62,684 bases of DNA, from NCBI GenBank assembly GCA_021810045.1, contig JAJZJR010000012.1, positions 1-62,684 of the forward strand, given 5' to 3'. The position numbers were made by a program, and so were the translations under genes. Within the stretch, counting starts at the first letter, position 1, and every line of letters starts with the position of its first letter. Positions 40,914 through 62,684 of this stretch are shown one piece after another. Below the pieces are notes generated by a model that made no database searches, had not been told where the DNA came from, and saw nothing but the letters and a program-made list of their open reading frames with translations. The DNA comes from Thermoplasmata archaeon. Lineage in GTDB: Archaea > Thermoplasmatota > Thermoplasmata > Thermoplasmatales > Thermoplasmataceae.

Positions 40914-42545
40914 TCAACTTCCGGAAGCCTCAGAGTCAGGGAAAAGCCTTCTTATTCTTTCCACAGCTGATTTATCCAGTGCCGGAACTTCAGGGGTGAC
41001 GCGATCTGCACGTATAACAATGCTGTTCCGGGATATCTCAACGTCCGTATGCGGGTTTACCCGAGTTGAAACGGCCCATTGGACCTGCTCAGGGTCTGTT
41101 GCGTCTATGTCCTCTCCCACGATGATATTGATCCTCCTGTCATTCCTGTAGCTGTGGGAAATAACGGCTTCACCTTTTCCTGCCCTGACAATCAGGTCCC
41201 TGCCGGATATGGAGGTGGTGAATTCCTCATCACTGCTGTCTGTTACAGCAATAATCTTTCCAGTGGTGCCGTCTTTCCCTGCGGTGAAGTCTGAACTTAT
41301 CACAAAGACTCCGGGAATTCTAGTAAAGACTTCTCCATAATCCTCTCCTGTATTTATGAGCCTGGCAAGCGTACTTGTAAAGTCAAGTGCTGCAACGCCC
41401 TGGTTGATTATTATGAACTTCCCCCAGAGCGGATCAAGTGCCATGATTCCCAGTCCAAGCTGTCTTGCCAATCCTCTGGATGGCGGCACAACATAACCCA
41501 GGGAAAGGAATCTTGCTCCGGAGTGGGGCCATACAACACTGAAATCTGTTCCTCTCGGCATGTAATCTCTCAGAGTGCCCATTATTCCGGCAGATCTTGG
41601 CATGGAGAAGGTATTCACGTGTTCGCTGGAATTTGATGGCTGGATATCATAATAGATAGGATCGTTTCTCATTAGGATGGATTTCACATGAGCAGTGTAT
41701 CTGGTGGAATCATGCCCCATATATCCGGTGTACTCTGCAAAAGGTCCCTCATCAAAGTTCTTTCCCGGTTTGAATCTTGCCTCAAGAACTATTTCTGCAT
41801 CATGTGGCAGGTAGATGTCGTTCTCAAGCCCACGGGAAAGTTCCACATCCATGAAAGTTGAGGCTCTGTCATATTCTCTGTCAGTGAATGATGCAGCCAG
41901 CAGGTAATACAGTGGGTGCACACCAATCATGACCGTGAGTTCAACCTCCTCTCCTTTCTGTGAGGCATGATTCAGGTAGTTCCACAGGTGTCCATGGCTG
42001 CCTGCATCAAAGGCATACATGTTTTTTGAAATAGGCTGGATTCTTGTAAAGCTGAGATTTATGATTTCAGGGTTCTCAAGGGTCCTGTGTGCAACAATAC
42101 CCGAGCTTATGTATCGTGATTTTCCCGCCTTTGATCCATCTGAAGGATAATGTGACGGTACTGGAATAGAGTATAGATCTACAGAATCATCTCTCATGAC
42201 CCTTTCCATAAAGGTGGCTGATCCCTTTTGGAAAGTGACGGATCCGGATGGGTATTCTGAGAGTGCCCTGGCATATCTCTCGTTAAAGGATCTAAGGTCA
42301 GAAGTGCCAGTTCCGTAGAATATCCTGCGTTCACTTCCCAGGACATTGGTCAGGAGCCTGAAATCCCTGTAACCACTGAGACAGTTGAACATCAGCATGC
42401 TGTTTGAATCATTTCTCAGGACAGAATACGCTGTTGTTTCGTACTCGGCGCTTATTTCCTGGTTTATCTCCCTATAATCGTCCGGGTTGTCTGTTTTGTA
42501 GTTTTGGATAAATTCCCTAAGTGTGGATCCATTTCTCCTGTCCAT
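40914..42545 (-). CDS. UbiD-family prenylated-FMN decarboxylase
   Basis: A 543-residue protein with the UbiD fold: LREFIQNYK at the start, GIVAHRTLENPEIINLSFTR region, and the catalytic Glu-Arg-Glu zone around EIVLEARFKPGKNFDEGPFA EYTGYMG (about residues 255-285). UbiD enzymes use prenylated FMN made by UbiX to add or remove carboxyl groups on aromatic or unsaturated acids. No ubiX is in the window. Substrate unknown; quinone, aromatic acid or mevalonate-derived acids (as in the archaeal trans-anhydromevalonate route) are candidates. Confidence 0.88.
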   Translation of the reverse strand: MDRRNGSTLREFIQNYKTDNPDDYREINQEISAEYETTAYSVLRNDSNSMLMFNCLSGYRDFRLLTNVLGSERRIFYGTGTSDLRSFNERYARALSEYPSGSVTFQKGSATFMERVMRDDSVDLYSIPVPSHYPSDGSKAGKSRYISSGIVAHRTLENPEIINLSFTRIQPISKNMYAFDAGSHGHLWNYLNHASQKGEEVELTVMIGVHPLYYLLAASFTDREYDRASTFMDVELSRGLENDIYLPHDAEIVLEARFKPGKNFDEGPFAEYTGYMGHDSTRYTAHVKSILMRNDPIYYDIQPSNSSEHVNTFSMPRSAGIMGTLRDYMPRGTDFSVVWPHSGARFLSLGYVVPPSRGLARQLGLGIMALDPLWGKFIIINQGVAALDFTSTLARLINTGEDYGEVFTRIPGVFVISSDFTAGKDGTTGKIIAVTDSSDEEFTTSISGRDLIVRAGKGEAVISHSYRNDRRINIIVGEDIDATDPEQVQWAVSTRVNPHTDVEISRNSIVIRADRVTPEVPALDKSAVERIRRLFPDSEASGS

Positions 42546-42719
42546 TTCGAGCCTTCTTTATGGTGTCAGGCGGTTATTATTCATATTTTTGGCGATTCAG
42601 GCAAGCGCCTGGATTCTTAATATTCTTGACTATAGATTCCATTAGAAAGAAGTACTAGCGGATAACGCCATCAGTCATATCTCCGGTCCAGGAATTATCT
42701 GTTCTGATAAGTATTTCAG

Positions 42720-43919
42720 CTAAATCTTCGATTTCCTTATCTCCAAGTGCAGTTTTATAGCAGATGCCAGAAAAGAGCCAATTATCAACATGATCCCATA
42801 GATCAAAGTGATGTAGACTATGGGCCAGATCACAAGATAAAGAAGGTCTGCGGTAGCAGTAATATAGGGAAGAAAGAATAAAGTATACCAGAATCCCAGC
42901 CCAAGGGTGTAACGGAGCAAAGATTCCGTGTAAATAAGAGATATAATGATTAAAAACACAAGATATGGTGCTTTTTCCAAAACCATCTGCCTGAATGTTC
43001 TTCCCACGGCACGGTTTGCTTCCAAGACAGAATTCCTATTGTTTTCAGTACCATGTCCCGGCTCCTGATGGTTTGCAAGATAGTTCTTCCATGCAGAACC
43101 CCGTATGGCAAGAAGGGTTGAGAAAAGCATCAATGAAACCGAAAGTACAGGTGGAATTACTTTGACAATCATGATTTCCAATCTTCCCATACTACCTTGG
43201 ATAAGGGCGTTCCAGAAAGGATTTCCCGAATAATGGATCAATAGAGCGTAATTTCTGAAACCATTTTCACTGATTTGACTTATGTAGCCTGAATTCTGGA
43301 ATGCAGAAAGTATGCTAAGGCCGCTCCCGGAACCAAAAATACTGTCAAACTCATATCCCATCAGTACCACTGCGGCCAACATCAGGTAGTATGAAATTAA
43401 TGGCACAATAATGACAATGGGGGCCCATATGAACCAGGAATAATTACCGCTCTTTTTCCTTTCTAAAACAATTCTTGCCTGCAACTGTGCTGTAACTCTC
43501 ACAAACAGAAATGAAATGAAGAGTGATGCCAGTATTATGAGCAAGATAGCAGGCAGAAATGTTTCAATGCACAGCCGATATATCGTGGCCCAGTTTCCTG
43601 CAAATATACCCTCAATGAACCACGCATACTGTAGATAGAGTGGCTCGTTCAGATGCATTTGAGCAGACAGATTTACAATCTGTACACTGCGGGGTATTGG
43701 ACTGTGTGGATTTACGAATGCAGAAACCAATACTTCATTTGGATAAGATCTCCAATAGATAAAAAGTAGGATTGTAAGAAGAAAGAAAGCCAATACTGCA
43801 AATAAGATCAGTCTCGGGTATCCCGTGACAGATTTCATGGAGATATTAACTGATTTTTGGATATATTCTTTTTCTGCAATTGTTTTTCTTCCCAATCTAA
43901 AAAATAAAGAGAATTTCAA
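42720..43919 (-). CDS. divergent DppB/OppB-like membrane protein
   Basis: A 399-residue protein with about seven or eight helices. The segment MHLNEPLYLQYAWFIEGIFA resembles the LGLDxPLxxQYxxWLxxxxxGxxG element of dipeptide ABC permeases, and the C-terminal ESLLRYTLGLGFW with a late pair of helices matches their ends. The EAA loop is poorly recognisable and no DppC, ATPase or binding protein is adjacent. It may be an orphan or degenerate permease. The gene lies just before the integrated element. Confidence 0.5.
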   Translation of the reverse strand: MKFSLFFRLGRKTIAEKEYIQKSVNISMKSVTGYPRLILFAVLAFFLLTILLFIYWRSYPNEVLVSAFVNPHSPIPRSVQIVNLSAQMHLNEPLYLQYAWFIEGIFAGNWATIYRLCIETFLPAILLIILASLFISFLFVRVTAQLQARIVLERKKSGNYSWFIWAPIVIIVPLISYYLMLAAVVLMGYEFDSIFGSGSGLSILSAFQNSGYISQISENGFRNYALLIHYSGNPFWNALIQGSMGRLEIMIVKVIPPVLSVSLMLFSTLLAIRGSAWKNYLANHQEPGHGTENNRNSVLEANRAVGRTFRQMVLEKAPYLVFLIIISLIYTESLLRYTLGLGFWYTLFFLPYITATADLLYLVIWPIVYITLIYGIMLIIGSFLASAIKLHLEIRKSKI

Positions 43920-43971
43920 AAGAAGGCGAGGGTGACTTCAGCTAGTTAGTCGCTAAATTTACAAGAATATT

Positions 43972-43981
43972 GGGGGGGGGG
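43972..43981 (+). repeat. ten-guanine homopolymer
   Basis: A run of ten G (43972-43981) in otherwise A+T-rich intergenic DNA, about 50 bp upstream of the DppB-like start and 115 bp before the zinc-ribbon gene. It could vary in length or be an assembly-prone site. Confidence 0.7.
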
Positions 43982-44095
43982 AGTTACGGTACTCCTTAAT
44001 TTAAAAATATGCAAGCATTTCATCATTTTCTTAGTAAATCAGACCATTTTCACCTTTTCAGAAAGTAATATATATAATTTGCAGTATGCATTTAT

Positions 44096-44317
44096 ATGAC
44101 AATGAAACATTGTCCTAGCTGCAAAAGAAATGTAGACACTGAGCACAGTTGGAATACTGTTGTTCTTGTGGTTTTACTCATATTCTTTCTAATACCGGGT
44201 TTAATTTATTTGGCCTGGAAATGGAAGAGACGTTGCCCAATTTGCCATACACCAGAAAAGATGCTTACAGCACCTAAGTTTGATGATCAGGCTGTATCGC
44301 CCGGTGCTTTTCCATAA
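44096..44317 (+). CDS. small zinc-ribbon membrane protein
   Basis: A 73-residue protein. CPSC near the N-terminus (residues 6-9), a single hydrophobic helix VVLVVLLIFFLIPGLIYLAW, then CPIC (about 48-51): two CxxC halves of one zinc site around a membrane insertion, like LITAF-type proteins. A TATA-like AATATATATAAT (44067-44078) lies 20-30 nt before ATG 44096 or the second ATG 44102, indicating a leaderless transcript. Function unknown. Confidence 0.7.
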   Translation: MTMKHCPSCKRNVDTEHSWNTVVLVVLLIFFLIPGLIYLAWKWKRRCPICHTPEKMLTAPKFDDQAVSPGAFP

Positions 44318-44779
44318 GCCGGAATGACTTTTCCCATTTTCCCTTATTTTATTTATTTTTCAAACTTACTGTTTACCACCATGTGGATTCCTGCAAAAAT
44401 CGCAACTGAAGCAATTTTTCTAATAAATTTATTGTAGCGGATAAATTTTCACAATTGCGAGAAATACTTGGATATAAAACAGGTTCTTCCTAGTTTTGTG
44501 TGGGTTGAAAGTAGAGAAATATATCTGCGAACATTTGTTATGGCCAATCCAATTCCAGGTTTAAGATCAGGGCACTTCAGGAATAACTCAATTCTATCTT
44601 TACAACCTGATTTGCAGGTTGCCTGGAAAATTTATGGTTAAGTAACCCACACAAAAGTCCGATGAACCATAAAACAAAAATCCATAATCAGGTTCATGCT
44701 AACTTATAGGGAGTTAAATCTTGTACAACTACAAAATTAAGCCTGTAATATCTGTTAGAAAACCACTATTATCAAAGAG
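44318..44779. other. intergenic, nested inverted repeats next to the attachment site
   Basis: No gene is visible. The region holds TTTTGTGTGGGTT (44494-44506) and its exact inverse AACCCACACAAAA (44644-44656), a 7-bp hairpin CAACCTG/CAGGTTG (44603-44621), TTTATGGTT/AACCATAAA (44631-44639 and 44665-44673) and AACCTGATT/AATCAGGTT (44604-44612 and 44686-44694). These could fold into one structure or serve as protein-binding arms beside the att site. Confidence 0.5.
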
Positions 44780-44821
44780 AGCCACTGGAGGGTTTCGATC
44801 CCCCGACCTGCTGATTACAAA
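44780..44821 (-). other. attachment site: 3' half of a tRNA-Thr(UGU) gene
   Basis: On the minus strand this reads anticodon loop TTTGTAA (anticodon TGT), 3' stem TCAGC, variable loop AGGTC, T stem-loop GGGGG-ATCGAAA-CCCTC, acceptor CAGTGGC and discriminator T at 44780. The 5' half is absent: past 44822 the sequence (TCCAA) does not pair with the anticodon stem. SSV-type integrases recombine at this point in tRNA genes, so this is the partial copy left at one end of the element. The intact tRNA-Thr should lie at the far end. Confidence 0.8.
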
Positions 44822-45607
44822 TTGGATGAAATTCGTGATGAGTTTGTTAAATGGCTTAAAAACAAGAATTTGTCAAAATCATACATCAAGGATTTAGTTG
44901 GAACATTTGATAAGGAAGTCAGATTCTTGGATTTATCAGATATTGACTCTATTCGAGAATATCTTGAAAGTCTAAACAGTAAAACAATGGCTGTAAATTC
45001 TCTCAGAGCAGTTTGTAATTTCCTTGAATACAAAGGAGCCCCAAAAGAAGAACTGACAAGGATTAGAACCTATCTGAAATCAGAGAAAGGCCAATCTGAT
45101 AATTTTGTCCCATCAGATAAACAGGTAATTGAGGCTTTACTGAAGATCAATGACAAACGCTTCAGAACAATGTTTCTGATATTTGCTTATTCAGGAATTA
45201 GAGGGACCGAATTAGTAAAAATGGTTAGGGAATTCGACAAGGACAAGTTGATCATAAATGGAACGATCGCTAAGTATCAGTTATTCTATTCAAGAGGAAT
45301 GAAAAACAATTATTACGTGTATATGCCAAAACATCTTGCCGAGCAGTTGCATAAATTCTACATACACGGCGACACGATCAGCCATAATTTTAGTAAAGCA
45401 GGATTGGCCCCCAAGTATCTTCGTAAGTGGCTCTACAACTTCCTGATTTACAACAATGTTCCTGAAAGTGTGGCTGACTTCATTGAGGGAAGGTCAGCTA
45501 ACACAGTTGGAAGCATGCATTACTTGGCGAGAGCAAAACAGGCTGATCATTGGTATGGGTTAGTTGTGGATAAGTTAAAAGAAACCCTTGAACCAACAAA
45601 TGAATGA
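44822..45607 (+). CDS. int: SSV/pNOB8-type tyrosine integrase, probably the int(C) fragment
   Basis: 261 residues from TTG 44822. The tyrosine-recombinase core has Arg127 in YSGIRGTELVKM, a basic strand with Lys151, PKYLRKWLYNFL (about 197-208), ESVADFIEGR (Arg224) and the nucleophile Tyr234 in GSMHYLAR. The frame continues upstream through the tRNA fragment to a TAG at 44756-44758 with no start codon, reading HWRVSIPRPADYK antisense to the tRNA. This is how an integrase gene split by its own integration looks, with int(N) at the other end. Alternatively the TTG yields a short working protein. Confidence 0.88.
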   Translation: MDEIRDEFVKWLKNKNLSKSYIKDLVGTFDKEVRFLDLSDIDSIREYLESLNSKTMAVNSLRAVCNFLEYKGAPKEELTRIRTYLKSEKGQSDNFVPSDKQVIEALLKINDKRFRTMFLIFAYSGIRGTELVKMVREFDKDKLIINGTIAKYQLFYSRGMKNNYYVYMPKHLAEQLHKFYIHGDTISHNFSKAGLAPKYLRKWLYNFLIYNNVPESVADFIEGRSANTVGSMHYLARAKQADHWYGLVVDKLKETLEPTNE

Positions 45608-46457
45608 TATAAACTAACTAAACAACTCATTTCTTTTATGCTTCCAATATAATGTGTTGAGTGGTTAATTGAAACCCTATTTTTCTCAATAGGAATAAGG
45701 TTTGGATAAGTAAAATAATTTCAAGTTATTTCATCCACTAACTGTTTCCTTACTGCTGGAAAATTGATAACCCTATAATTCCTATGTAATATAGGGTTGA
45801 TGGCAACCATGAATTATATTGTTAATTCTACCGGAACATACACAACTTGACTATGATTTGTATATAAGGAAATTCCAAAAAAGTGGTCCATTTCCATGAG
45901 TTTTAATTTAAATTCATTGAAATTTTACCTAGGCTTTAATGGTTAGAACACTTGGAATACTATCAAGTTGTCATGTTATAAGGAAATTTGAATTTTGTAG
46001 ATGATTTCTGAGGGTTTTATAAAAAACATGGTATACCTACTAATTGTACTTGGAGTGAGACACAATGTTTAAGCACGACTTGGTTCGAGCTCGTATACAT
46101 TAAATTTAAAACTAAATCAATAAAAACATGTAATTTAACAAAACCATATCACATTAATCTGAAAATCAGTCATTTAGGACTATTTATACACATTTTTGCC
46201 AGTAGATTTTTTCTTCGAAATTGGATTAAAAAGGCATTATTGTTTATGTTATTAATATGGGGAAGTAAAATTAATTATCTACCTACATCATTCAATTTCT
46301 GTGTTTCTGGATAAGTATAATGTTCCGTTTCTCCCAATGGGAACGATGTGGGAAACCACGAATAAGCTATGTGTTAAAGGAGCTCTTCAACCTACAAGCT
46401 TGAGAAATAGAATATATTTTTCTTTCAAAGGAGGGGTACAACATTAGAGCATTCTTA
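45608..46457. other. 850-bp A+T-rich intergenic region with dyads
   Basis: No convincing gene. Three copies of AACCCTAT occur: plus at 45672-45679 and 45769-45776, and minus at 45791-45798. The last two form a 9-bp hairpin AACCCTATA/TATAGGGTT (45769-45777, 45790-45798). ACAACTTGA (45842-45850) is inverted at 45963-45971. The region separates the integrase from the DISARM-like operon and may hold a replication or control region of the element, plus the operon promoter. Confidence 0.45.
46427..46436 (+). promoter_or_regulatory. strong ribosome-binding site of drmA
   Basis: AAAGGAGGGG is a near-perfect Shine-Dalgarno sequence. It is 6 nt before an in-frame ATT (46443) and 21 nt before the first in-frame GTG (46458), which bears on the choice of the drmA start. 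Confidence 0.6.
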
Positions 46458-49400
46458 GTGAGGGAGTTAGTAAAGGAAGTCTTGGGCCCCAGAAATGGCA
46501 TCAACGAGATCATTACAAATCCAATGGAAGAGTACATAACAGGCGTTTTGGCCCCCGCAGAACCTGAGAATGATGTAGAAGATGGCGATTATGAAATAAA
46601 TGGTGGCGGTGGTGGTGAAGAGGCTGAAGAATATAATGAACCTCCTGTGAGTGGTCCTCTTCTCTCAACCTCAGTCATGGATCCAAAGAAGAGAGCACAG
46701 ACTATGGGGATATCATTTGAATTAGAGAGGAAAGCAGATTCTAAGTTTGAAGTCTGTCTGACTTGGGCAATTTACAAAAGAGATCCTGAAAGTTCTGTGT
46801 TTAAGCGTTTTCCCATTTACAAGATTTTAGATTTCGATGCAGAAAGCAGCTCTGATGTGTGGATGAACTCAACTGGAGGAATTGCAGACAGGTCGGAAGC
46901 TTTTTTGTCTTTACATTCAGTGATCAGAGTAAAAAAAGGAAATACTAGGAATGTACATCTCTACCTTGTCAATAGAAATGTATCAAGGCGACAAATTGGA
47001 TTAGATGAGACCAGTATTTTGCAAAATAGAGTTGAACTTCATATATTTCAACCACAAATCAGAATAAAATTACATAACTGCGATATACTTTCCTTAAGGA
47101 AAGCACAATTAGGGCATAAATCACCTAGCGAGGAAATTTTCGATTTCCAGTACAGAGATGAAAAGATATACGCAAAGGGGCATATGTGCTCTGCGATTTG
47201 GAAAGAAGCAGACCATGAGTCAAAAATTGATCTAAAATCTAAAGACAGTGAGGATGCTTATTTTATGTGGTGGGAAGACTCATCCATAGTTCCCGAAGAA
47301 CAATTAGTGAAATTTCTTCCAGCAGACATCAGAACTGAGTTTGTTCCCCTTTCCATAGTAGAAGGGTCATCAGTAAATGTAGGTAACATGCAAAGTGGAG
47401 CTTTATCTGCAAGTACTCTAGCAAATGCTTTGGGGCCAACTGAACTTGAGAGTATGTTGAAGCCAATTTTACATGGTTACAGGGACTGGATTGACGAAAT
47501 CAGAAACAGTGAATCATTCCCCGAGGACGAAAGCAAAATTAAGGAGATAATCGGAAGGCATGAGGAAAGTTACCTTCGCATTTCAAGAAGCATAGAACTG
47601 ATATTGGGCGACGAAGATGTCAGATTATCTTTCTGCTTCTCAAACAAGGCCATGGATCTGCAGAGAAAATGGAGTGAGGGCGATGGACTAAAATGGAGAC
47701 CTTTTCAACTGGCTTTCATTCTAACTGTTCTTGAGTCCATGACTTCAGAAAGTTCTGAATTTAGAGAATTGTGCGATTTGCTCTGGGTACCAACAGGTGG
47801 CGGTAAAACAGAAGCTTATCTGGGACTCATGGCATTTGCATTGGCATATCGACGAAGAAAAGCAATTTCATCTGATGACAAATTCAGAGGAGGGGCCGGT
47901 ATAACTTCCATAATACGGTATACGTTACGATTACTGGCAATTCAGCAATTTAGAAGAATAACCGCGATGGTCACTGCTTGTGAATATCTGAGAGTTATCA
48001 AAACCTCAAGTTCCGAAATTGGTTGGAGACCAGAGCCTACCCAAATTGAAGGAAACTTCATATGGGGCTCAACCCCTTTTTCAATTGGATTGTGGGTAGG
48101 CGGCAATGTCACCCCCAACAGAATACAGGATTTTGGAGAGGAGAAGGTCAGATATAAAGGGTCAATGATTGAGAATAAATTTTATCGCCCTGGGGCGATC
48201 TCATCGTTAAGAAAACATCATAAGAACGCAGAAGGTGAACCTGCGCAAGTATTGAACTGCCCCTCATGCAAGAGTTCACTCGCGCTCCCTTTCCAAGAAG
48301 ATGGTCTGCTAATTAGCAAAAGGAAACTTTACTTCGTTTTGAAAGTCCCTGATAACGAAAATCCTCCAGAAAAGACAATCGAATTCAAACATAGAGGGAT
48401 ACAAATAGGGGATTTGATTTTGTCTTCTCTTCCGTCGGGATACTACACAATGGAGGTGCAAATTGAATCTGATAGGAAAGTGACGAGAGAAGAGTTTGAT
48501 TCGGCCTTAAAAAAATATGTCAAGCAAATTTGGACAGCGGCAGAAATAGCTTCTATTAGCCCAAGCAGGATGGGGTATTTTAACAGGTTTTATCTGTCGA
48601 ATAGCTCAAGAGCGACAAATAATGCTGAGATAGATTTCGATTTTGATATATTCTGTCCTAGTTCTAACTGTGATCTAAATGCGACTTGGTTTGGTGGTGC
48701 ACCATATGGCCTTGTTCACAATTCAATTCCAGAAAGTAAGCCCACGGTGAGTGTCTTAGGACTAAGATTCAAAGATGACAACAAATTCATGTCGGTGATT
48801 AATCCCTTCCGTTTTGGGAATGCCTTTACTTCCTGTAAGATTCCGATAAATGCCTATACAGTGGATGAGCAAATTTATGGCCGGCTCCCCTCAATTCTTG
48901 TGTCAACTGTAGATAAGTTTGCGAGAATGCCTTTTGAATCTGCAATAGGCTCACTTTTTGGTAACGTGAATTACTACCATTCAATGAAAGGATTCTACAG
49001 GAAGGATGCATTAGCAAATTCTTGGAATTCAGATTCTTCGAAATCACACCCAAGTCCAAAGGGAAGGGGGGCCTATCTGGCTTATCGTTCTGTCCCGGAA
49101 CTTGAACCGCCTGAGTTGATTGTGCAGGATGAATTGCACCTGATAGAGGGCCCCCTTGGGAGTCTTATGGGCTCTTACGAAACCGCAGTAGATTTCCTAA
49201 GTACGCAAGAGAGTGCTCCAAAACTGGTAGCTTCTTCAGCTACGGTATCAGGTTCTGAGGAACACATAAGAAGTGTGTTCAACCGTGGCGCTAGAATTTT
49301 TCCACCTTTAGGAAAGAAACCAAATGACAGGTATTTTGTGCATAATGATGAAACGGATCTGACAGACGAAAAACGACCGGGAAGAATTTACATAGGAGTC

Positions 49401-50417
49401 ATTGCCCCTGGTAGAGGCGCTCTTACTCCTTTGGTTCGGATATATTCTAACTTGCTTCAATCAGCTGAATTAATTAGAAAACATGAGAATCCAGACCCTT
49501 ACTGGACGTTGGTCGGATACTTCAATGCAGTTAGGGAGCTATCAGGAGCAAGGGCGCTGTACAGACAAGATATTCCTTTGAGAATCAGTGAAATAAAAGG
49601 TAACGAAGCATCCAGGCCTACCCAGGAAGAATCATCCATAGAGCTTTCAGGAAGGACCGATTCCACCATCCTCCCTTCTATTCTCGAGGAACTTGAACAG
49701 CCTTTTCCCGAAGCACCAGATGTGCTTTTCACAACTTCCATGTTTGGGACTGGAGTCGATATCAAGAGATTATCATTGATGGTTGTCAATGGCCAACCAA
49801 AGACCACGTCCTCTTACATACAAGCTACTGGAAGAGTGGGTAGAAATATGGGTGGACTCGTTGTTACCTTCTATAGGGCTTCTCGACCTAGAGATTTGAG
49901 CCATTATGAGTACTTTACAAGTTATCACAAGTCATTAAACAGACATGTTGAGAAAATAAGCGTATATCCTTTTGCTTCCACCGCTGTGCAGAGATTCGGA
50001 GGGCCCGTTCTTGTATCAATGCTCAGGAATATGAGGAATGCTTCACTCAATTGGAGGTTAAGAAGAGGTGGGTCTGAAATCAGTGGAAATCGGATATCTC
50101 CAGATATTGAAAGAGTGGTGACTGCTTTTCAAAAGAGGTCCCAATCCCAGCCGCCTATCAGGAGGCCCTCAGTGAGTTCTCTAATGCATTCTATAAACAG
50201 TCAGCTTGATAACTGGGAGGCGATAGCGGATAGTTATCAAGACCTACTATATGTGGAATATTCTATGATGTCAGAGTTAAATGAAAATGTAGTGCTTGGA
50301 GACCCACAGCACAGATATGCAGACAAAGCAATAGTTTTTGACGATGTGCCACAGTCAATGAGGGATATAGAGGAAAGTATAACTTTTCAGACTCGGCCAT
50401 TTAGGAGAAGACCTTAA
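46458..50417 (+). CDS. drmA: DrmA-like superfamily 2 helicase, DISARM core
   Basis: A 1319-residue helicase. The N-terminal third is an accessory domain; Walker A is PTGGGKTEAY (about residues 445-452), the DEAD-type box is QDELHLIEG (about 890), motif III region ASSATVSG, and motif VI QATGRVGRNMGG (about 1120). Two Cys-rich spots (CPSCKSS near 600 and CPSSNCD near 735) may bind zinc. DISARM DrmA has this layout with a DUF1998 partner, and drmB begins directly after its stop. It probably loads on foreign DNA with DrmB. The start may be ATT 46443 rather than GTG 46458, judging by the ribosome site. Confidence 0.88.
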   Translation: MRELVKEVLGPRNGINEIITNPMEEYITGVLAPAEPENDVEDGDYEINGGGGGEEAEEYNEPPVSGPLLSTSVMDPKKRAQTMGISFELERKADSKFEVCLTWAIYKRDPESSVFKRFPIYKILDFDAESSSDVWMNSTGGIADRSEAFLSLHSVIRVKKGNTRNVHLYLVNRNVSRRQIGLDETSILQNRVELHIFQPQIRIKLHNCDILSLRKAQLGHKSPSEEIFDFQYRDEKIYAKGHMCSAIWKEADHESKIDLKSKDSEDAYFMWWEDSSIVPEEQLVKFLPADIRTEFVPLSIVEGSSVNVGNMQSGALSASTLANALGPTELESMLKPILHGYRDWIDEIRNSESFPEDESKIKEIIGRHEESYLRISRSIELILGDEDVRLSFCFSNKAMDLQRKWSEGDGLKWRPFQLAFILTVLESMTSESSEFRELCDLLWVPTGGGKTEAYLGLMAFALAYRRRKAISSDDKFRGGAGITSIIRYTLRLLAIQQFRRITAMVTACEYLRVIKTSSSEIGWRPEPTQIEGNFIWGSTPFSIGLWVGGNVTPNRIQDFGEEKVRYKGSMIENKFYRPGAISSLRKHHKNAEGEPAQVLNCPSCKSSLALPFQEDGLLISKRKLYFVLKVPDNENPPEKTIEFKHRGIQIGDLILSSLPSGYYTMEVQIESDRKVTREEFDSALKKYVKQIWTAAEIASISPSRMGYFNRFYLSNSSRATNNAEIDFDFDIFCPSSNCDLNATWFGGAPYGLVHNSIPESKPTVSVLGLRFKDDNKFMSVINPFRFGNAFTSCKIPINAYTVDEQIYGRLPSILVSTVDKFARMPFESAIGSLFGNVNYYHSMKGFYRKDALANSWNSDSSKSHPSPKGRGAYLAYRSVPELEPPELIVQDELHLIEGPLGSLMGSYETAVDFLSTQESAPKLVASSATVSGSEEHIRSVFNRGARIFPPLGKKPNDRYFVHNDETDLTDEKRPGRIYIGVIAPGRGALTPLVRIYSNLLQSAELIRKHENPDPYWTLVGYFNAVRELSGARALYRQDIPLRISEIKGNEASRPTQEESSIELSGRTDSTILPSILEELEQPFPEAPDVLFTTSMFGTGVDIKRLSLMVVNGQPKTTSSYIQATGRVGRNMGGLVVTFYRASRPRDLSHYEYFTSYHKSLNRHVEKISVYPFASTAVQRFGGPVLVSMLRNMRNASLNWRLRRGGSEISGNRISPDIERVVTAFQKRSQSQPPIRRPSVSSLMHSINSQLDNWEAIADSYQDLLYVEYSMMSELNENVVLGDPQHRYADKAIVFDDVPQSMRDIEESITFQTRPFRRRP

Positions 50418-52244
50418 ATGACACAAGAAATTAGAAAATCGCAGTTTGTAATCACGTACGGACCGGGATCAATTTTAGAGAGTATGGACGGCCCCAGAAT
50501 TATCCCCAAGAGCGACATAGGCCTGTTCAAACATAATAATTTAGATCCAAAAGATTACAGAATAGACGATGAAAGGATGTCAAAGGGGTTACTGGACGGA
50601 AATGGAGTATATGAATTGCCATCAAGTGCAGTCCTTGGTAACACAAAAAACTGGGATTGGTACAGGACAAAAACTTTTCCCGAATGGAAACTGTGCTTAA
50701 ATGCGACAAAACATCCAGGGGGTCTTTACATTCTTTACCACAGTTTTTATTCGAATGTTTGTCCGGAATGCAAGGAATATAACAGATCCGAGAGTATACG
50801 ATTTGTCAGCGCCTGCTCCGATGGCCACCTTGACGAATTCAATTGGGAAGAGTTTGCACATAAACAAAATAGGAACTGTGGCAATAAATCAAGTTACTAT
50901 TGGAGTGGTGGGGGTGGAGCCTTATCACAAATATACATAAAGTGTCCGGATTGCAATGCAGAGAGCAGAAGCTTAAGAGATGCCTATACAGATTTCTGGT
51001 CCTGTAGTGGAAGGAATCCAGAGTCCGAAGATGTGAACGGGCCCCCGGTAAGACCACATGGATGCTCATCACCCTCTAGACTCATTCAGAGACAAGCTTC
51101 GAACCTCCGAATGACTGAATTGGACACTCTCTTTTCGATTCCTCCAATTGTAACTAAATTACACAGCGACCTTGGCACTTCAGAAATGAAGGCCGCATTA
51201 TCTAGTTTAGAACGACTCCCGCAAGACAAAACGACCTTGGAATCAATACTCGGAAGGTTAGTTGAGAACGAGGTGATCAATGAAAGCGTGAAGATTAGAA
51301 TCCTATCGAATCCTTGGAATGAAATTCAACGTGCGATAGATGATATTTTTAGCACAAAGAGAGATGAAGAAGCATATTCAAACCTACTCGAAGAAGAGTT
51401 TTTTGCGCTGATAAAAGCATCTAAGGATGGGCAACCACCAGTTCGGGGGGGTTATCCAAAATCCTCGGTTTTCTTTGAAGTATCACCAAATGACGTTGAG
51501 TTTGCAAAGGTGAATGAGAAAATTGGTTTACGTATTACACCAGTAAATAAACTTCGAACAGTCATAGTCCAAAAAGGATACAGGAGAAACATTGGAAGAG
51601 GTAAGGGTCGGTCGGCATCTCCAGAAGCAGACACTCCAAGGTTCGTAGATGTTTCTTTTGAGCATAATAATAAAAGATGGTACCCCGGAGTACAATTTCT
51701 GGGGGAAGGGTTATTCATCACATTGGACGAAGAGACTGAGTTCTCATTCGATGGTGAGGTTGGTCAAGTTTGGACCGAGGCAGATAGAAATTTTTATTCA
51801 GATACATATCATAATAGTGATGATAAACACGAGATAGAACCTCTATACGTATGGTGGCATACGCTCAGTCACTTGTTGATAAGAAGAATTTCACAAGATG
51901 CAGGGTATTCTTCAGCATCCATTAGAGAACGGATATATTTTGCAGACCGAGATGGAAAGAAGCAGGGTGGCATAATTCTCTATGCAACACAACCTGGCAC
52001 AGATGGTACATTGGGAGGACTTATATCACTGACGAAGAATATTCAGACAATTATAGATGAAGCAATAGAAGAGGCAGAAAATTGCTCTGCTGATCCCCTC
52101 TGCAGCGAAAATTTCTTCGAAAGTGGAAAATATAGTGGAGCAGCTTGCTACAGTTGTTTACATCTGTCCGAAACTTCATGTGAGAAGAGAAATATGTGGC
52201 TTGACAGAAATCTAATCCGAGAGACGTTATATGGGCGACTGTGA
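50418..52244 (+). CDS. drmB: DrmB-like DUF1998 protein, DISARM core
   Basis: A 608-residue protein. It opens with IRKSQFVITYGPGSILESMD, typical of DrmB; CPECKEY and a further CPDC pair (about residues 115-180) look like zinc sites; LYVWWHTLSHLLIRRISQDA near the C-terminus is the DUF1998 signature, followed by a cysteine cluster (CSADPLC, CYSC, SETSC) in the last 60 residues. In DISARM, DrmB binds DrmA to form the DNA-sensing complex. It starts on the base after the drmA stop and overlaps drmC by 14 bp. Confidence 0.88.
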   Translation: MTQEIRKSQFVITYGPGSILESMDGPRIIPKSDIGLFKHNNLDPKDYRIDDERMSKGLLDGNGVYELPSSAVLGNTKNWDWYRTKTFPEWKLCLNATKHPGGLYILYHSFYSNVCPECKEYNRSESIRFVSACSDGHLDEFNWEEFAHKQNRNCGNKSSYYWSGGGGALSQIYIKCPDCNAESRSLRDAYTDFWSCSGRNPESEDVNGPPVRPHGCSSPSRLIQRQASNLRMTELDTLFSIPPIVTKLHSDLGTSEMKAALSSLERLPQDKTTLESILGRLVENEVINESVKIRILSNPWNEIQRAIDDIFSTKRDEEAYSNLLEEEFFALIKASKDGQPPVRGGYPKSSVFFEVSPNDVEFAKVNEKIGLRITPVNKLRTVIVQKGYRRNIGRGKGRSASPEADTPRFVDVSFEHNNKRWYPGVQFLGEGLFITLDEETEFSFDGEVGQVWTEADRNFYSDTYHNSDDKHEIEPLYVWWHTLSHLLIRRISQDAGYSSASIRERIYFADRDGKKQGGIILYATQPGTDGTLGGLISLTKNIQTIIDEAIEEAENCSADPLCSENFFESGKYSGAACYSCLHLSETSCEKRNMWLDRNLIRETLYGRL

Positions 52245-52725
52245 AGTAGTATCAACTGGAGATATACTAATCAAAGCTGGGTCTAGGGGAACATACTCTG
52301 TAGCAATGGAACTGATAAGGAACACTAAGAAGGAACTTCAAATTGCTTCCTTTTCATTCTCAGACAGTATGGGGGAGCTTCTTGATCTGTTCGAAATACT
52401 CCTTTTGAAGGGAATCAGGATAACTGTCATCTTAAATTCTCCCAGTACAGTCGGTACAGTTATAAAGAAGAGACTTGGAAAACTCAGTAAAAGGTTCTCC
52501 GATTTCATCACTTATGATTTTGTTGGGACATCCGGGCGCCTTCTTCACTCAAAGGTCATAATTTCAGACAGAGCTAAAGCTCTAGTGGGTTCTGCCAATC
52601 TATCTTGGGGGGGACTCAGAGGGAATTATGAGATCGGAATTCTTGTCAAAGAAGAACAGGCTTGGGAGATTTCAAAATTATTGGATGAGATTGCAGAAGT
52701 TTCCGAAATGTTTAGGTTCGATTAA
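52231..52725 (+). CDS. drmC: DrmC-like phospholipase D-family nuclease
   Basis: A 164-residue protein with one PLD/HKD motif: HSKVIISDRAKALVGSANLS (about residues 105-124). The first half forms the alpha/beta core that starts with AMELIRNTKKELQIASFSFS. Single-motif PLD nucleases act as dimers. In DISARM DrmC is the PLD nuclease and is not always required for protection. Its start lies within drmB and its stop is 2 nt before a small ORF that links it to drmMII. Confidence 0.85.
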   Translation: MGDCEVVSTGDILIKAGSRGTYSVAMELIRNTKKELQIASFSFSDSMGELLDLFEILLLKGIRITVILNSPSTVGTVIKKRLGKLSKRFSDFITYDFVGTSGRLLHSKVIISDRAKALVGSANLSWGGLRGNYEIGILVKEEQAWEISKLLDEIAEVSEMFRFD

Positions 52726-52727
52726 TA

Positions 52728-52883
52728 ATGGGATATTGTAAGTTTAAGAATATGCACATGGGCACCATAGGATTCAAAGAACCTAAATTACAATCCATCA
52801 TAAGCGCATTCGTTTCCAAGTATAACATAACTTATTCAAAATCTGTAGGTCACCAAAATAGAAGTTTTCGAGGGGAATTATGA
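52728..52883 (+). CDS. 51-residue small protein inside the DISARM-like operon
   Basis: ATG 52728 begins 2 nt after the drmC stop, and the TGA (52881-52883) overlaps the drmMII ATG (52880) as ATGA. The product opens MGYCKFKNMHMGTIGFKEPK and ends NRSFRGEL; it is basic, with a likely amphipathic helix in LQSIISAFVSKY, and has no membrane segment. It is in a different frame from both neighbours, so it is not a readthrough of drmC. The packing is that of a coupled operon member. Family unknown; it could be an accessory or regulatory subunit. Confidence 0.6.
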   Translation: MGYCKFKNMHMGTIGFKEPKLQSIISAFVSKYNITYSKSVGHQNRSFRGEL

Positions 52884-54481
52884 TAAAGGTTATAGATCTG
52901 TTCGCAGGACCTGGTGGATTAAGCGAAGGTTTTTCCAGAGTAAAAGACAGAAATAAGGACCAAGTCTTTGATGTTGTTCTATCAATAGAGAAGGAATTCT
53001 GGGCCTATCAGACTCTGAAACTGAGGACATTCAGTCGCGCTTTTGAGAATTCGCTTCCTGAAACTTACTATTCATATCTGCGTGGCGAAATTGAATTGAA
53101 TGATTTATATGTTAGACATCAAACAGAAGCAGAAGAGGCAGAAAAGAAGTGTTGGAATTTTGAGTTGAAAGACGACATAGAATCAGTCCGGCTAACTAGG
53201 TCAAAAATAATTGAGGCATTGAGGGAGGATAGAAACTTTGTGCTCATTGGAGGCCCGCCATGCCAAGCATATTCAATCGCTGGAAGGTCAAGAAACGCCC
53301 GTAATACAGGATATGATGAGACAAAAGACGAAAAGCAGGTGCTTTACAAGGAGTATCTTCAGATCCTAGCGGACCATGAACCGGTCATCTTCATAATGGA
53401 AAATGTAAAAGGTCTACTATCTTCTGAATACCAAAATGAAAAGATAGTTGACAAAATAATGAAAGATCTGGAAAATCCGAAACTTGCAATGGAGCAAGAA
53501 GGTAGAGAGGTTTGTAACCCCAATTATCCTGAGTATTCAATCTACTCACTAGTAGATGGTGAGTTATTAGCTGGAAGAAACCCATCATACGCTGTAATCC
53601 GTTCCGAGAGATACGGAATACCTCAAAAAAGACACCGTGTCATTCTGCTTGGAATCCGAAAGGATATAACCGGTGTAAAGCCACTCCCCCTTGAAACGGA
53701 GGATCCAGTTGAGCTACGCAAGGTGATTAATGATTTACCCAAGTTGAGAAGCGGGCTGTCCAAGGAAGAGGACAGCCTAAACGATTGGATTCAAGCGATA
53801 ACCTCAGTTGAAAATGAAGAATGGTTTAAAAAATTAGAAGCTGATGATAGATTTCATTCACTTGCTATTCACATGAAACAAATTTTGTCAGATATTAGGA
53901 AGGCTAAATTGGAGAAAGGCAAACATTTCGTCGAAGGAGATTTTACAGTTGATTTTGAAACCGAATGGTACAGGTCATCAAATTCAAGTGGGGTGACATT
54001 GCACAATACAAGGTCCCATATCCGAAGGGACCTGCACCGCTACTTATTTTCAACATGTTTTGCTAATGTTAAAGAGAAAAGTCCTGTTTTAGACGATTTC
54101 CCAGAGGAACTGCTCCCAGACCATGCCAATGTTAAAAAGGCAACTCGAAAGAATGGTAATTTTGCAGATAGGTTCAGAGTTCAGTTATATGATAGACCAT
54201 CGACAACAGTTGTATCACATATTAGCAAAGACGGGCATTACTATATACATCCTGACCCAGTTCAATGCAGAAGCTTCACCGTAAGAGAAGCCGCTAGAGT
54301 TCAGACTTTTCCTGACAACTATTATTTCTGCGGGAAAAGAACCTCACAATACCAGCAAGTCGGAAATGCTGTGCCACCATTGTTGGCAAGAAAAATAGGT
54401 CAAGTTGTCTACGATATACTTAACAGTTCGGGATTGAAGATGACCAGCAAATTTTCACTGGAAAACTCAAACTTAAAGTGA
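52880..54481 (+). CDS. drmMII: DrmMII-like DNA (cytosine-5) methyltransferase
   Basis: A 533-residue m5C methyltransferase with all main motifs in order: DLFAGPGGLSEGF (I, residues 5-17), GGPPCQAYS (IV, catalytic Cys at about 128), MENVKG (VI, about 172), RYGIPQKRHRVILLGIR (VIII), and YQQVGNAVPP (X, about 490). It would methylate host DNA so that the DISARM helicase complex ignores it. The size, larger than typical restriction methylases, and the operon place it as DrmMII. Recognition sequence unknown. Confidence 0.93.
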   Translation: MIKVIDLFAGPGGLSEGFSRVKDRNKDQVFDVVLSIEKEFWAYQTLKLRTFSRAFENSLPETYYSYLRGEIELNDLYVRHQTEAEEAEKKCWNFELKDDIESVRLTRSKIIEALREDRNFVLIGGPPCQAYSIAGRSRNARNTGYDETKDEKQVLYKEYLQILADHEPVIFIMENVKGLLSSEYQNEKIVDKIMKDLENPKLAMEQEGREVCNPNYPEYSIYSLVDGELLAGRNPSYAVIRSERYGIPQKRHRVILLGIRKDITGVKPLPLETEDPVELRKVINDLPKLRSGLSKEEDSLNDWIQAITSVENEEWFKKLEADDRFHSLAIHMKQILSDIRKAKLEKGKHFVEGDFTVDFETEWYRSSNSSGVTLHNTRSHIRRDLHRYLFSTCFANVKEKSPVLDDFPEELLPDHANVKKATRKNGNFADRFRVQLYDRPSTTVVSHISKDGHYYIHPDPVQCRSFTVREAARVQTFPDNYYFCGKRTSQYQQVGNAVPPLLARKIGQVVYDILNSSGLKMTSKFSLENSNLK

Positions 54482-54548
54482 TATTGAAATTCTCTATGAA
54501 GCGTGATATTTATTAGTTTTTTGAATTTTTTACTAGAGGTTGGATTCT

Positions 54549-54965
54549 TTGACTGACAGAATCACAAGAGAACAAAGAAGCAGAAATATGGCCAATATTA
54601 AAGGTAAAAACACAAAACTGGAAATGGTTGTAAGAAGATATCTCTTCTCTCATGGATTAAGATATAGGATTCATTATGAAATTCTGGGCAGACCAGATAT
54701 AGCGTTTCCAAGACACAAGATAGCCATTTTCATAAATGGATGCTTTTGGCACCAGCATGGTTGCGAGCTTTCAGCAAAACCAAAAACTAGAACAGAGTTC
54801 TGGCAGAAGAAGCTAGCTACAAACAAGGAAAGGGATCAAAAGATACAGTGGGAATTAACTGATGAGGGGTGGGAAGTTATTACAATATGGGAATGTGATC
54901 TAAAGAGTACAACTGCCTTGACTTTAGAAAGACTCATAAGAACAATAGTTGAAAAGAGATCCTAG
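54549..54965 (+). CDS. vsr: very-short-patch-repair endonuclease (Vsr family)
   Basis: About 138 residues. EQRSRNMANIKGKNTKLEMV, GRPDIAFP (metal-binding Asp) and IFINGCFWHQHGCE are the Vsr signature. Vsr nicks next to T:G mismatches that arise when 5-methylcytosine deaminates. The frame is open from TTG 54540, but TTG 54549 stands 8 nt after TAGAGGT and is preferred. It follows drmMII by 67 nt in the same direction, so it likely repairs or guards sites methylated by DrmMII; an alternative is use as a nuclease effector. Confidence 0.9.
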   Translation: MTDRITREQRSRNMANIKGKNTKLEMVVRRYLFSHGLRYRIHYEILGRPDIAFPRHKIAIFINGCFWHQHGCELSAKPKTRTEFWQKKLATNKERDQKIQWELTDEGWEVITIWECDLKSTTALTLERLIRTIVEKRS

Positions 54966-55105
54966 ATATTATCCATATAAATCTTTAAATTCTGGTAAGA
55001 CCGGATAATTCAAGATTTTGTCAATGTTAACACATAATTTTAAGTTGTTATGAAGATGGAAATCAATATATAACCACTCATATTTTAACTGTTAAGTCGA
55101 TAATA

Positions 55106-56836
55106 ATGAGTGAGAAGTTAGTGTCTCCGAATCCCGTGGTGATTTTGAAGAACGCGATACAAAAGGAAGAGGAATACATTAAATCAAAGCTTCCAAGTGA
55201 GCCGAGATTAGCTTTATTTGAAATTATAAGGGAGTCCGATGCTTATTTCGCTCATTTACTATCCATAAGTAAAAGAGAGGCTGCAGAGTTAGTCGAAGAT
55301 AATGAATTTATGTTTTTTCGAAGAATAGGTATTAACAAAGCAATTTCAATTTGCCTAGGAAATTGGTGTAATCAGATAGGTACCCCGTTGGTGGGCTCCA
55401 CAACAGAATTTCAAGATTTCATCGAAGCTATAATACAACATTGTGGGAGAATAGGATTATCAGAACGCATTTTGGACTTTGATCATTACAAATTAGGGCA
55501 ACTGAGTTATGTGGCAGAAAATGAAGTAAGGTTTAAGCACGCAAGATTTCGATACTTGGGACTTGAAAGCAAAGAAGCCGAGGAATTTAACATTTATCGT
55601 AAATTCAGTGACAAATATGATGGTGATAGACTATCGAAATTAAATAAGAAAAGGCATAAAATGATACAAGAGATGAAAAAATACGTAAAACCTTGGCGTG
55701 AACACTATATTCAGTATGATTCAACACCTGAAATTGATGAATTTTACGAGGAACTTGGGATTATATGGACTAGACCTAAATTTTTTGAAGCAATTTCATT
55801 TCCTGCAGATGTTAAGTTCGGTAAACTGCCCTTTCACCTATACATGTCAACAATAGCTATCCTTGCTGGTTGGGACCTTAAACACATGGACTTTTGCAAC
55901 GCCCTTCTTATGAAAAATCCAGGAATGGAATGGAGAAATGTATTAACAATTTTTCAGAATACAGAAAAACTCTGTGAATATCTTTCTATGGCGCTTAATT
56001 TAACAGTTGAAAATGCTAGAGGGCTGCTTGAAGTATTGACCCTAAATCCAGGAAATGCAAAAACTCATACGTCAACACCAGGGGGATATCTCGCACCACT
56101 AGTGAAAGTAAGTAAGGAATCTGTTATAAGATCTATTTCTGGAATTCTAAGTGGCGGGGCATATTTCTTTATGCTAAACGAATTAAAAAGGAGGTTTCAG
56201 AAGGACTGGGACCGTGCGGTGCTGGAAAGAGAGCAAGTATTCCGTTACGAGATTCAATTGCAACTAATGTCTGAAAATATATATAGTAATACTGGTCCAA
56301 TTAAAATTCGCTTCAATAACAAGATTGTAACAGACATAGATGCTGCCTTTTTCGATGAAAGAAATGGCGAATTGGGGTTATTTCAATTAAAGTGGCAAGA
56401 TTTTTTTGGTGATTCTTTGCAGAAGAGGGAAACCAAGAAGAAAAACTTCCTTGAGGAGTCCACAAAATGGATTGAAAAAGTGACTGATATGATTACTTCA
56501 AACACTAATGAGAAGATAATGGAGATAATTAATTTAGACAAATTTACTCATACAAGAATATCAAAGATCTACCTTTTCGTGATAGGAAGAAATTTTTCAC
56601 ATTTTTCTGGTAATGAAGTACCAGATGATAGAGCCGCTTGGGGAATGTGGCCTCAGTTGCTACGTATTCTGAATGAGGGAGGGGAGAATGATAATTTAAT
56701 AAAGTCTAACAAAATTTCTTGGCTGCATAATAAGCTAAAGGACGAATCCCCCATTCATGATAAACCCCCAGAATTCAAAGATAACTTTCAGTACGAAGTA
56801 GGTGGGTGCAAAGTAACTTTTGGTCCCCGATTATGA
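55106..56836 (+). CDS. protein with a possible D...QxK nuclease core, next to the defence operon
   Basis: A 576-residue protein. The first 380 residues are helical with no known motif. At about 407-429 VTDIDAAFFDERNGELGLFQ is followed by LKW, giving D-x(n)-QxK, a known variant of the PD-(D/E)xK nuclease core, in NERD-like surroundings. The C-terminal 150 residues are mixed alpha/beta. A TATA-like CATATTTTAAC lies about 26 nt before the ATG, so it probably has its own leaderless promoter. Placed 140 nt after vsr, it may be an added effector. Role inferred only. Confidence 0.6.
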   Translation: MSEKLVSPNPVVILKNAIQKEEEYIKSKLPSEPRLALFEIIRESDAYFAHLLSISKREAAELVEDNEFMFFRRIGINKAISICLGNWCNQIGTPLVGSTTEFQDFIEAIIQHCGRIGLSERILDFDHYKLGQLSYVAENEVRFKHARFRYLGLESKEAEEFNIYRKFSDKYDGDRLSKLNKKRHKMIQEMKKYVKPWREHYIQYDSTPEIDEFYEELGIIWTRPKFFEAISFPADVKFGKLPFHLYMSTIAILAGWDLKHMDFCNALLMKNPGMEWRNVLTIFQNTEKLCEYLSMALNLTVENARGLLEVLTLNPGNAKTHTSTPGGYLAPLVKVSKESVIRSISGILSGGAYFFMLNELKRRFQKDWDRAVLEREQVFRYEIQLQLMSENIYSNTGPIKIRFNNKIVTDIDAAFFDERNGELGLFQLKWQDFFGDSLQKRETKKKNFLEESTKWIEKVTDMITSNTNEKIMEIINLDKFTHTRISKIYLFVIGRNFSHFSGNEVPDDRAAWGMWPQLLRILNEGGENDNLIKSNKISWLHNKLKDESPIHDKPPEFKDNFQYEVGGCKVTFGPRL

Positions 56837-58351: not shown

Positions 58352-58978
58352 ATGGCGAATGTTTCTTATAACAACATTATTGAAAGCGTCAATTCAGGTA
58401 TCGAAGTAGCTGTGAAAGAACATCTGAAGCTGACTAACAATGAAACTGAGTTGTCTTGGGCCCCAGAGTATTTTATTAATGTCAATATAGTCAAAAAACT
58501 AAAGACACTTTCCGCTTCTTATGTCAATCTGGAAGAACCGATGGGTGAGTCCTGGGAACCACCGAAAGGCAAAGCGCCTGAAGACTGGAAGCCTAATAAA
58601 AGATATGACATTGTTGTCAGAAAGAGCAATAACTTCCCCTACGCTGCAATAGAAGTCAAAAACAGAGTTTATAAAGTGTCAGATAGGGAGATTGAGGACT
58701 TCAAAAGAATATCAACTGCTGTGAATTCTAAAGAAAATGGTGAGAACGTGTTCAAAATGGGGATATTCGCTTTTTATACTGTGTTCGATGAAGATTACAC
58801 AAATCAAACAGAGAAGAAGGAAAACATCTTGGACCTGTATTCCAATCTTGAAAAAGAACTAAAAAGGCTTAAAGGAAGGGCAGAAGTAGATAGTGATCAT
58901 CTTTTTGATCCTACTCCTTATACTCACTTAGAAAATTCAGTCTGGGGCGGGGGATGCTTCATTCTGTCCCCACAATAA
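58352..58978 (+). CDS. PD-(D/E)xK nuclease-like protein
   Basis: 208 residues. KRYDIVVRKSNNFPYAAIEV followed by KNR gives the D-x(n)-ExK core (about residues 88-113) of restriction-type nucleases, after a helical N-terminal part. ISTAVNSKENG and the C-terminal WGGGCFIL are unassigned. It may be a restriction or repair enzyme of the element. No methyltransferase is adjacent, so self/non-self discrimination is unclear. Confidence 0.65.
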   Translation: MANVSYNNIIESVNSGIEVAVKEHLKLTNNETELSWAPEYFINVNIVKKLKTLSASYVNLEEPMGESWEPPKGKAPEDWKPNKRYDIVVRKSNNFPYAAIEVKNRVYKVSDREIEDFKRISTAVNSKENGENVFKMGIFAFYTVFDEDYTNQTEKKENILDLYSNLEKELKRLKGRAEVDSDHLFDPTPYTHLENSVWGGGCFILSPQ

Positions 58979-61552: not shown

Positions 61553-62089
61553 TTAGAAAAGAGAAGACAAAACTCCTCCAAGGTTTCTAAATACTTCTTC
61601 TATTTTGTTGAATCCATTATCCCCTTCATACTTTTCATATTTCTTATTTTTTATAGGAGTCATACCAGACATTCCGGACAATAGTATGTGAGATTTCCCG
61701 ATATTTTTCCCATTCTTGTTTTGACTGGCCAATTTGTAAAGTTCTAAAGAAGGGAATATCCAGCTGGTGTCTAACCATTCTGAATAAAAAAGGAAGAGAT
61801 AGTTATCTCTTGGCTCCTTTATGTCCATAGCCGCAAAGCGAGCAGCGTCATATGCTGCACAATTTTTGGAACGTGCTTTAATCTGCAAGTCTATGTAGTA
61901 AGGCTTAGAATCTATAGTTTTGCGAATGATGCAATCAATACCCTGGTCATCTACCAATGTTTTGTATACATCATACCCTCTTTTCAGAAGTTCAGAAATA
62001 GCTACATATTCATAACGCTCACCAAATGATTTCAAGCTTCTGTAAGTATGGTTGCCCGACTTCGTTGCATCATCTTTAGCTTCTTCCAT
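61553..62089 (-). CDS. DUF4365-like PD-(D/E)xK nuclease-family protein
   Basis: 178 residues. GERYEYVAISELLKRGYDVY with DDQGIDCIIRK and YYIDLQIKARS supplies Glu, Asp and the QxK of a DUF4365-type restriction nuclease core (about residues 23-73). LFLFYSEW follows. Typical of mobile DNA; its target is unknown. Confidence 0.7.
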   Translation of the reverse strand: MEEAKDDATKSGNHTYRSLKSFGERYEYVAISELLKRGYDVYKTLVDDQGIDCIIRKTIDSKPYYIDLQIKARSKNCAAYDAARFAAMDIKEPRDNYLFLFYSEWLDTSWIFPSLELYKLASQNKNGKNIGKSHILLSGMSGMTPIKNKKYEKYEGDNGFNKIEEVFRNLGGVLSSLF

Positions 62090-62311: not shown

Positions 62312-62572
62312 TTATAGGATTCTGTGCTTTCTCAGAATCCCAATTATAACAAATATAAGCGATACAATGCTAAATACGGTTAGGACTGCCTCTAAACCTT
62401 TTATTGATGAGAAAAGAGGATCAATCGAGGGAATTGATTGGGAGGTAGTGTTTAACACACTGTTTATTGCCCCTTCACCTGCTCCTTCAAGCACACTTTC
62501 TATTGCAAAAGTTAGGATCACAATAGTAATTGCCAACCCTGCCAGTATAAATTTTTTGGATCTCTTTAACAT
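62312..62572 (-). CDS. small two-helix membrane protein
   Basis: 86 residues: KKFILAGLAITIVILTFAI near the start and LTVFSIVSLIFVIIGILRKH at the end, with a small-residue extracellular loop between. Its ATG overlaps the stop of the transposase fragment. A hairpin GGATTCTG/CAGAATCC (62317-62324, 62333-62340) lies at the end of the coding sequence. Function unknown. Confidence 0.55.
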   Translation of the reverse strand: MLKRSKKFILAGLAITIVILTFAIESVLEGAGEGAINSVLNTTSQSIPSIDPLFSSIKGLEAVLTVFSIVSLIFVIIGILRKHRIL

Positions 62573-62684
62573 TGTGGGGGTAGCTTAAGTCCTCCCGCAA
62601 CCAGATAGATGATCGTATCTCTGTATTCATGAGCCTTGAAGCCATAGGATCTTTTGAACGCAGTACGGATCTTGTTGTTCAGGC
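62566..62684 (-). CDS. C-terminal end of a DDE transposase (partial, ISL3-like)
   Basis: Reading in from the window edge, the frame NNKIRTAFKRSYGFKAHEYR leads to DTIIYLVAGGLKLPPQC and a TAA at 62566-62568. The spacing of NNKI...YGF...YR...GGL.LP is that of the ISL3-like DDE transposase C-terminus. The catalytic residues are outside the window. Confidence 0.5.
   Translation of the reverse strand, partial: LNNKIRTAFKRSYGFKAHEYRDTIIYLVAGGLKLPPQC

Follow-up and report, generated by a model that had tools for sequence, protein, structure and literature searches.

The right-hand part of the window studied here, which begins at position 44777 and takes in the rest of the contig, almost certainly represents one terminus of an integrated mobile element (the Thr element below) whose integrase gene is split across tRNA-Thr(UGU). 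The window is the whole of contig C62, 62,684 bp long, from genome G000 (2,258,164 bases in 81 contigs). We observed both integrase halves, the repeat, their common frame, an agreeing orientation and empty sites in related genomes, and the arrangement of half tRNA and integrase in the window was confirmed. The attachment (att) core, on the reverse strand at 44777..44822, comprises the 3' half of tRNA-Thr(UGU), from anticodon loop to discriminator, and 2 bp beyond the gene. A preliminary description had placed a 42-bp tRNA half at the start of the integrase frame; the half is present and antisense to that frame, and the exact repeat proves to be longer, with window 44777-44822 identical over 46 bp, 44 of them within the tRNA gene, to C53:4061-4106. 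ARAGORN identified an intact tRNA-Thr with anticodon TGT at C53:4063-4136 and no whole tRNA in the window. The C53 copy has the same 3' half; an intact tRNA-Thr(UGU) with a different one, named earlier as a case that would speak against integration, was not seen. A 34-base core probe, allowing up to 3 mismatches, found two sites in the 2.26-Mb genome, both exact, and the reversed control probe found none in the same sequence. The rise in A+T content to the right that had been reported was reproduced, with G+C falling from 0.454 in window 1-44776 to 0.384 in 44777-62684.

The window half of the gene, int(C) (44759..45607, forward strand), is an open frame that crosses the att core and encodes the C-terminal part of a suicidal tyrosine recombinase. 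The whole frame comprises 282 residues, 261 of them after the core. As first described, it has no upstream start: the first ATG, GTG or TTG before the stop at 45607 is TTG at 44822, the last base of the repeat. Its catalytic domain, Phage_integr_3 (PF16795; 151 bits, E 3.1e-44, cut-off 27), occupies 45104..45571 on the same strand, residues 116-271 of the 282-residue frame, and residues 114-266 match the SSV1 integrase catalytic domain structures 3vcf, 4dks and 3uxu. In the numbering of that frame, R148, K182, R222, R245 and Y255 are invariant in all 12 alignment rows. We take their catalytic roles to be those assigned in the tyrosine-recombinase family, and int(C) is a putative recombinase with conserved candidate catalytic residues.

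The other half, int(N), lies directly before the intact tRNA-Thr(UGU) on C53 and on the opposite strand to it. Its frame starts at GTG 3908 and encodes a 51-residue ribbon-helix-helix-like (RHH-like, CcdA-type) domain, scoring 24.0 and 25.4 bits against a Pfam cut-off of 22.4. Both halves enter the 46-bp core in the same phase and, joined there, give a 327-residue open frame without internal stop, which bears out the proposal that an SSV-style integrase had cut its own gene and left int(C) with the partial tRNA at one end of the element. An intact tRNA-Thr(UGU) preceded by int(N) had been expected further along the window contig; it was found in the same frame, on C53 instead. The features of a suicidal integrase are thus present: a PF16795 domain, an att site within the integrase gene that yields int(N) and int(C) on integration, and a tRNA target restored beside int(N). 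Taken together, the earlier reading of an integrated element with a self-split integrase is supported.

Relatives with an empty site, also suggested earlier, were found in two congeners. In G079, genes of the C53 side, an intact tRNA-Thr(UGU) and genes of the C62 side lie together on one contig, and the whole genome has no match to the integrase at E 1e-10. In G080, contigs C20 and C8 overlap by exactly 127 bp at the unoccupied tRNA-Thr and lead on to those two sides, a gene of the C62 side lying some 380 bp away. The G080 assembly breaks in this region (end of L132, start of L133), as might happen if two versions of the site coexisted in the population. A chromosomal flank gene of the window (40914..42545, reverse strand), which we take to be UbiD-like, has homologues near the unoccupied tRNA-Thr of congeners. 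The left flank gives no clean empty-site match, because the 2.2 kb beside the half tRNA (window 42546-44776) have almost no counterpart at the G079 or G080 sites; this stretch may be the remnant of an earlier insertion.

The two ends agree in orientation: in the window the element extends rightward from 44777, and on C53 it extends leftward from 4106. With 17,908 bp visible in the window and 4,060 bp on C53 (21,968 bp), the element spans at least 21.97 kb; the minimum of 17.9 kb given earlier holds and is raised by the C53 end. The middle of the element, including at least parts of two insertion sequences, lies outside the visible sequence, because an insertion sequence interrupts the assembly at each inner contig end: C62 ends in one terminus (62558..62684, reverse strand; also on C46, C80, C78 and C21) and C53 begins in another, different one, and a search of both contig ends named no bridge between them. 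Window positions 1-129, like 62558-62684, are an insertion-sequence terminus common to other contig ends in the genome.

Similar split integrases with both halves on a single contig were found twice, and for that reason serve as positive controls. Contig C11 of G000 carries two further int(C) genes, both placed on half copies of tRNA-Ala(UGC). For the second (13435-13484), the partner is an int(N) at 30853-31062 beside an intact tRNA-Ala at 31018-31089; the two are linked by a 50-bp repeat 17.6 kb apart, are in the same phase, and give a joined frame of 332 residues. The first (8780-8825) uses a different frame for the same att DNA, and no int(N) partner was seen for it. The region 8780-31089 (L038/L039) shows tandem occupation of tRNA-Ala(UGC), with two half copies and one whole tRNA. 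In the relative G044, a one-contig genome, a 45-bp pair lies in tRNA-Thr(GGU), 15,826 bp apart and in the same phase.

An improbable account is that C62 and C53 hold two remnants of different integrations, each partly deleted, for which tRNA-Thr was a shared hot spot, and that there is no single element. C62 and C53 do not meet, and the tRNA-Thr site is reused in relatives: G082 has a diverged half copy and an intact tRNA-Thr(UGU) 5.2 kb apart (L134:620-5891, G082:C55), and G108 has a frame-shifted, decayed int(N) at its tRNA-Thr. The tandem occupation on C11, where one int(N) is seen for two int(C) genes, points the same way. However, two separate elements should have left behind a third copy of the core or signs of decay, of the kind found in C11 and G082, whereas the genome holds only two copies of the Thr core and both integrase halves are undamaged and in one frame. 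Between the G082 cores are an RRXRR/HNH protein, a PIN protein and a Fic protein.

Integrases of pNOB8-type elements stay whole. It is very improbable that the window holds such an element, its integrase lying beside rather than across the att site, even though the homologues L156 and L174 are whole in one frame: the window frame has neither an N-terminal domain nor a start before the core, and the N-terminal domain is found at C53. In addition, pNOB8-type integrases carry PF00589 according to PMC8371274, whereas the window integrase carries PF16795 and is split. The pNOB8 type was rejected on these grounds and, of the preliminary assignment to an SSV/pNOB8 type, the SSV half stands: the window gene is classed as a suicidal (SSV-class, PF16795) archaeal integrase. 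L156:9809-10780 (the same locus as L063:1492-2490, genome G105) belongs to the same family and encodes an RHH-type integrase at full length; no antisense T-arm was detected in its linker, and it is possibly a non-suicidal member.

The fuselloviruses SSV1 and SSV2 share with the window the catalytic domain, an att site within the gene and a split at integration, as described in PMC8371274. The N terminus of SSV2 is PF07935, whereas int(N) on C53 is a CcdA-type RHH-like domain, and a fusellovirus integrase proper was rejected on this difference. The identity of int(C) is 36-37% to the integrase of ApPV1, its best match in the phage collection, 33% to pT26-2 and 25% to SSV2; among suicidal integrases, the window integrase is nearer to those of pT26-2 and Archaeoglobus than to SSV2. 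The tree groups pT26-2, pGE2, ApPV1 and AvPV1 with five rows (Archaeoglobaceae and one Thermococcaceae record) at 95/98, with the window outside; it gives no resolution of the window's place among the remaining rows, and SSV2 and AvPV1 form long branches. Like the Thr element, the pT26-2 family of Thermococcales (pT26-2, pGE2) has PF16795, a weak CcdA/BrnA-type N-terminal RHH match and, by eye, a tRNA-like antisense peptide within the integrase frames. One of the 32 pT26-2 proteins, the integrase t26-1, has a counterpart in the visible sequence of the Thr element (E 0.01), and membership of the plasmid family beyond the integrase is unsupported. The Archaeoglobus pleomorphic proviruses (ApPV1) and Archaeoglobaceae likewise have PF16795-like integrases; in contrast to ApPV1, no pleolipovirus-like gene was recognised among the scanned proteins of the visible element. 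An RHH match above the Pfam cut-off occurs in the int(N) pieces of C53, C11 and L137, and below it in L063/L156, L138, pT26-2 and pGE2, with no match in the frame-shifted L139; the full-length homologues tested gave a weak Pfam match only (E 0.0018 to 0.026).

To describe how far the arrangement extends, homologous loci were collected and surveyed for an antisense tRNA T-arm. The integrase occurs in 18 of the 117 genomes of the order (E 1e-10). The genome_contigs set holds 43 loci, in MAGs named Thermoplasmata, Archaeoglobi, Thermococci, Woesearchaeota, Nanoarchaeota, Bathyarchaeota and one Thermoproteales, and viral contigs hold two. The survey began with 61 loci, namely 16 of the 26 places in the order (10 broken or partial ones were left out) and the 45 genome_contigs and viral loci; six without an N side were dropped. 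An antisense T-arm was present within 190 bp in 32 of the remaining 55, against 0.014 expected per 190 bp, and undetected in 23. Twelve of the 16 order loci repeat named loci and L189 repeats L190; with duplicates removed, the T-arm is found in 25 of 42 unique loci, some of them close relatives. These counts are a lower bound, because the test misses real cases such as the G044 half tRNA with its non-canonical T-arm. Although tRNA fragments are reported to occur in prokaryote genomes (PMC9897764), the notion that the half tRNA is a chance or unrelated fragment and the integrase merely truncated or misassembled can be dismissed for practical purposes, because a frame-matched int(N) lies beside the intact tRNA-Thr(UGU), the same repeat and frame arrangement recurs in three tRNA genes of two genomes, and the T-arm survey exceeds chance.

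The visible cargo of the Thr element includes defense genes; cargo genes in the window are on the forward strand unless stated. The defense genes begin with the long form of the DISARM helicase DrmA (46458..50417; PADLOC PDLC02571, 1413.7 bits; NCBIfam NF038326, 1395.8 bits, cut-off 999), followed by DrmB (50418..52244; PDLC02583, 622.9 bits; NF038324, 461.2 bits, cut-off 240), the PLD-like nuclease DrmC (52231..52725; PDLC02614, 131.7 bits; PLDc_2) and the DNA cytosine-5 methyltransferase DrmMII (52880..54481; PDLC02649, 312.9 bits; PF00145). A Vsr-like endonuclease (54540..54965; PF03852, 93.9 bits; PDLC03397) adjoins the methyltransferase. Further along are a 576-residue protein with no match in Pfam, PADLOC or NCBIfam (55106..56836), a 208-residue protein with a weak Tin match over 50 residues (58352..58978; PDLC02359, 26.4 bits) and no Pfam, NCBIfam or PHROG match, and, on the reverse strand, a DUF4365/Mrr-like nuclease candidate (61553..62089; PF14280 at 16.9 bits, below the cut-off of 24.3). 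The C53 end encodes a 474-residue protein without confident family.

The cluster at 46458-54481 joins drmA, drmB and drmC to a 5mC methyltransferase, drmMII, in adjacent positions as in DISARM class 2, to which it is assigned. It differs in its location on an archaeal suicidal-integrase element and in the Vsr-like endonuclease beside DrmMII. DrmB is present in 7 of the 117 genomes of the order and in one of the six of the genus, where it lies on the Thr element. With drmA, drmB, drmC and drmMII in its visible cargo, the element brought an antiviral island, and the DISARM cluster is predicted from its genes to function in antiviral defense. Among the 10 proteins scanned against PHROGs, no viral structural gene was recognised and the integrase alone gave a functional match. 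The Thr element is best called an integrated plasmid-like defense island; the scan covered its visible parts, and it may instead be a virus. The tRNA-Ala element of C11 carries HsdR, HsdS and HsdM of a type I restriction-modification system, together with a Prim-Pol/D5-like replication protein.

In the free circle, the integrase frame would run through the att site, encoding in order an N-terminal RHH-like DNA-binding domain, a linker, a core-binding domain and the catalytic domain, with the linker encoded antisense by the tRNA-Thr(UGU) 3' half. Recombination with the host tRNA-Thr(UGU) would then have kept the tRNA whole at C53 while splitting the integrase, so that int(N) adjoins the complete tRNA and int(C) the partial copy in the window. 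A circular form was not seen. The element is expected to remain where it is unless a related integrase, acting in trans, allows its excision.

The sister elements of G044 and C11 occupy tRNA-Thr(GGU) and tRNA-Ala(UGC), respectively, and their att-coded peptides differ. They are collinear over most of their length, with listed tblastx matches of 49-85% identity; their int(N) pieces share 84.9% identity over 53 residues, and their int(C) pieces 74.1% over 255. At the sequence level, collinear sisters in different tRNA genes are a clear indication of a target switch. In the intact homologue L174 (Archaeoglobaceae), an RHH-like part, an antisense T-arm and the catalytic domain share one frame. Its predicted structure has two N-terminal helices, then residues 48-67 with pLDDT below 50, then a fold that best matches the SSV1 catalytic domain; the low-confidence linker, residues 48-67, is modeled to contain most of the peptide encoded by att. 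Pfam is the basis of the RHH assignment, because the model, a monomer, shows no RHH strand and no RHH protein is among the Foldseek matches listed. Freedom in the linker may permit a change of target in such integrases.

Tentatively, and with the odds somewhat against it, we propose that one branch of RHH-type suicidal integrases is particular to Thermoplasmata and would deliver islands of DISARM or type I restriction-modification to tRNA genes, where they become fixed. The att stretch would be an unstructured linker readable in more than one frame and, because it would encode only this linker, the target could change by swapping that stretch alone. That suicidal integrases exist, split and have diverse targets is established, and Thermoplasmatales are not among the archaeal groups with inventoried tRNA targets in the Fig. 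12 legend (both from PMC8371274). We found no report of split integrases or DISARM in Thermoplasmatales in the open-licence literature, which is weak evidence of absence. The present case adds a branch from Thermoplasmata whose N-terminal domain is RHH-like, the cargo of type I restriction-modification and DISARM, and two sister elements in different tRNA genes. It also shows how DISARM came into G000, on the Thr element; one genome of six in the genus has DrmB, and has it there. A suicidal integrase poses a puzzle, as it disrupts its own gene and carries its target as part of the protein sequence: how do target and protein change together? Target switching becomes directly testable with three tRNA-split pairs from two genomes of one family, sisters in different tRNA genes, two frames on the same att DNA and a model with a flexible linker.
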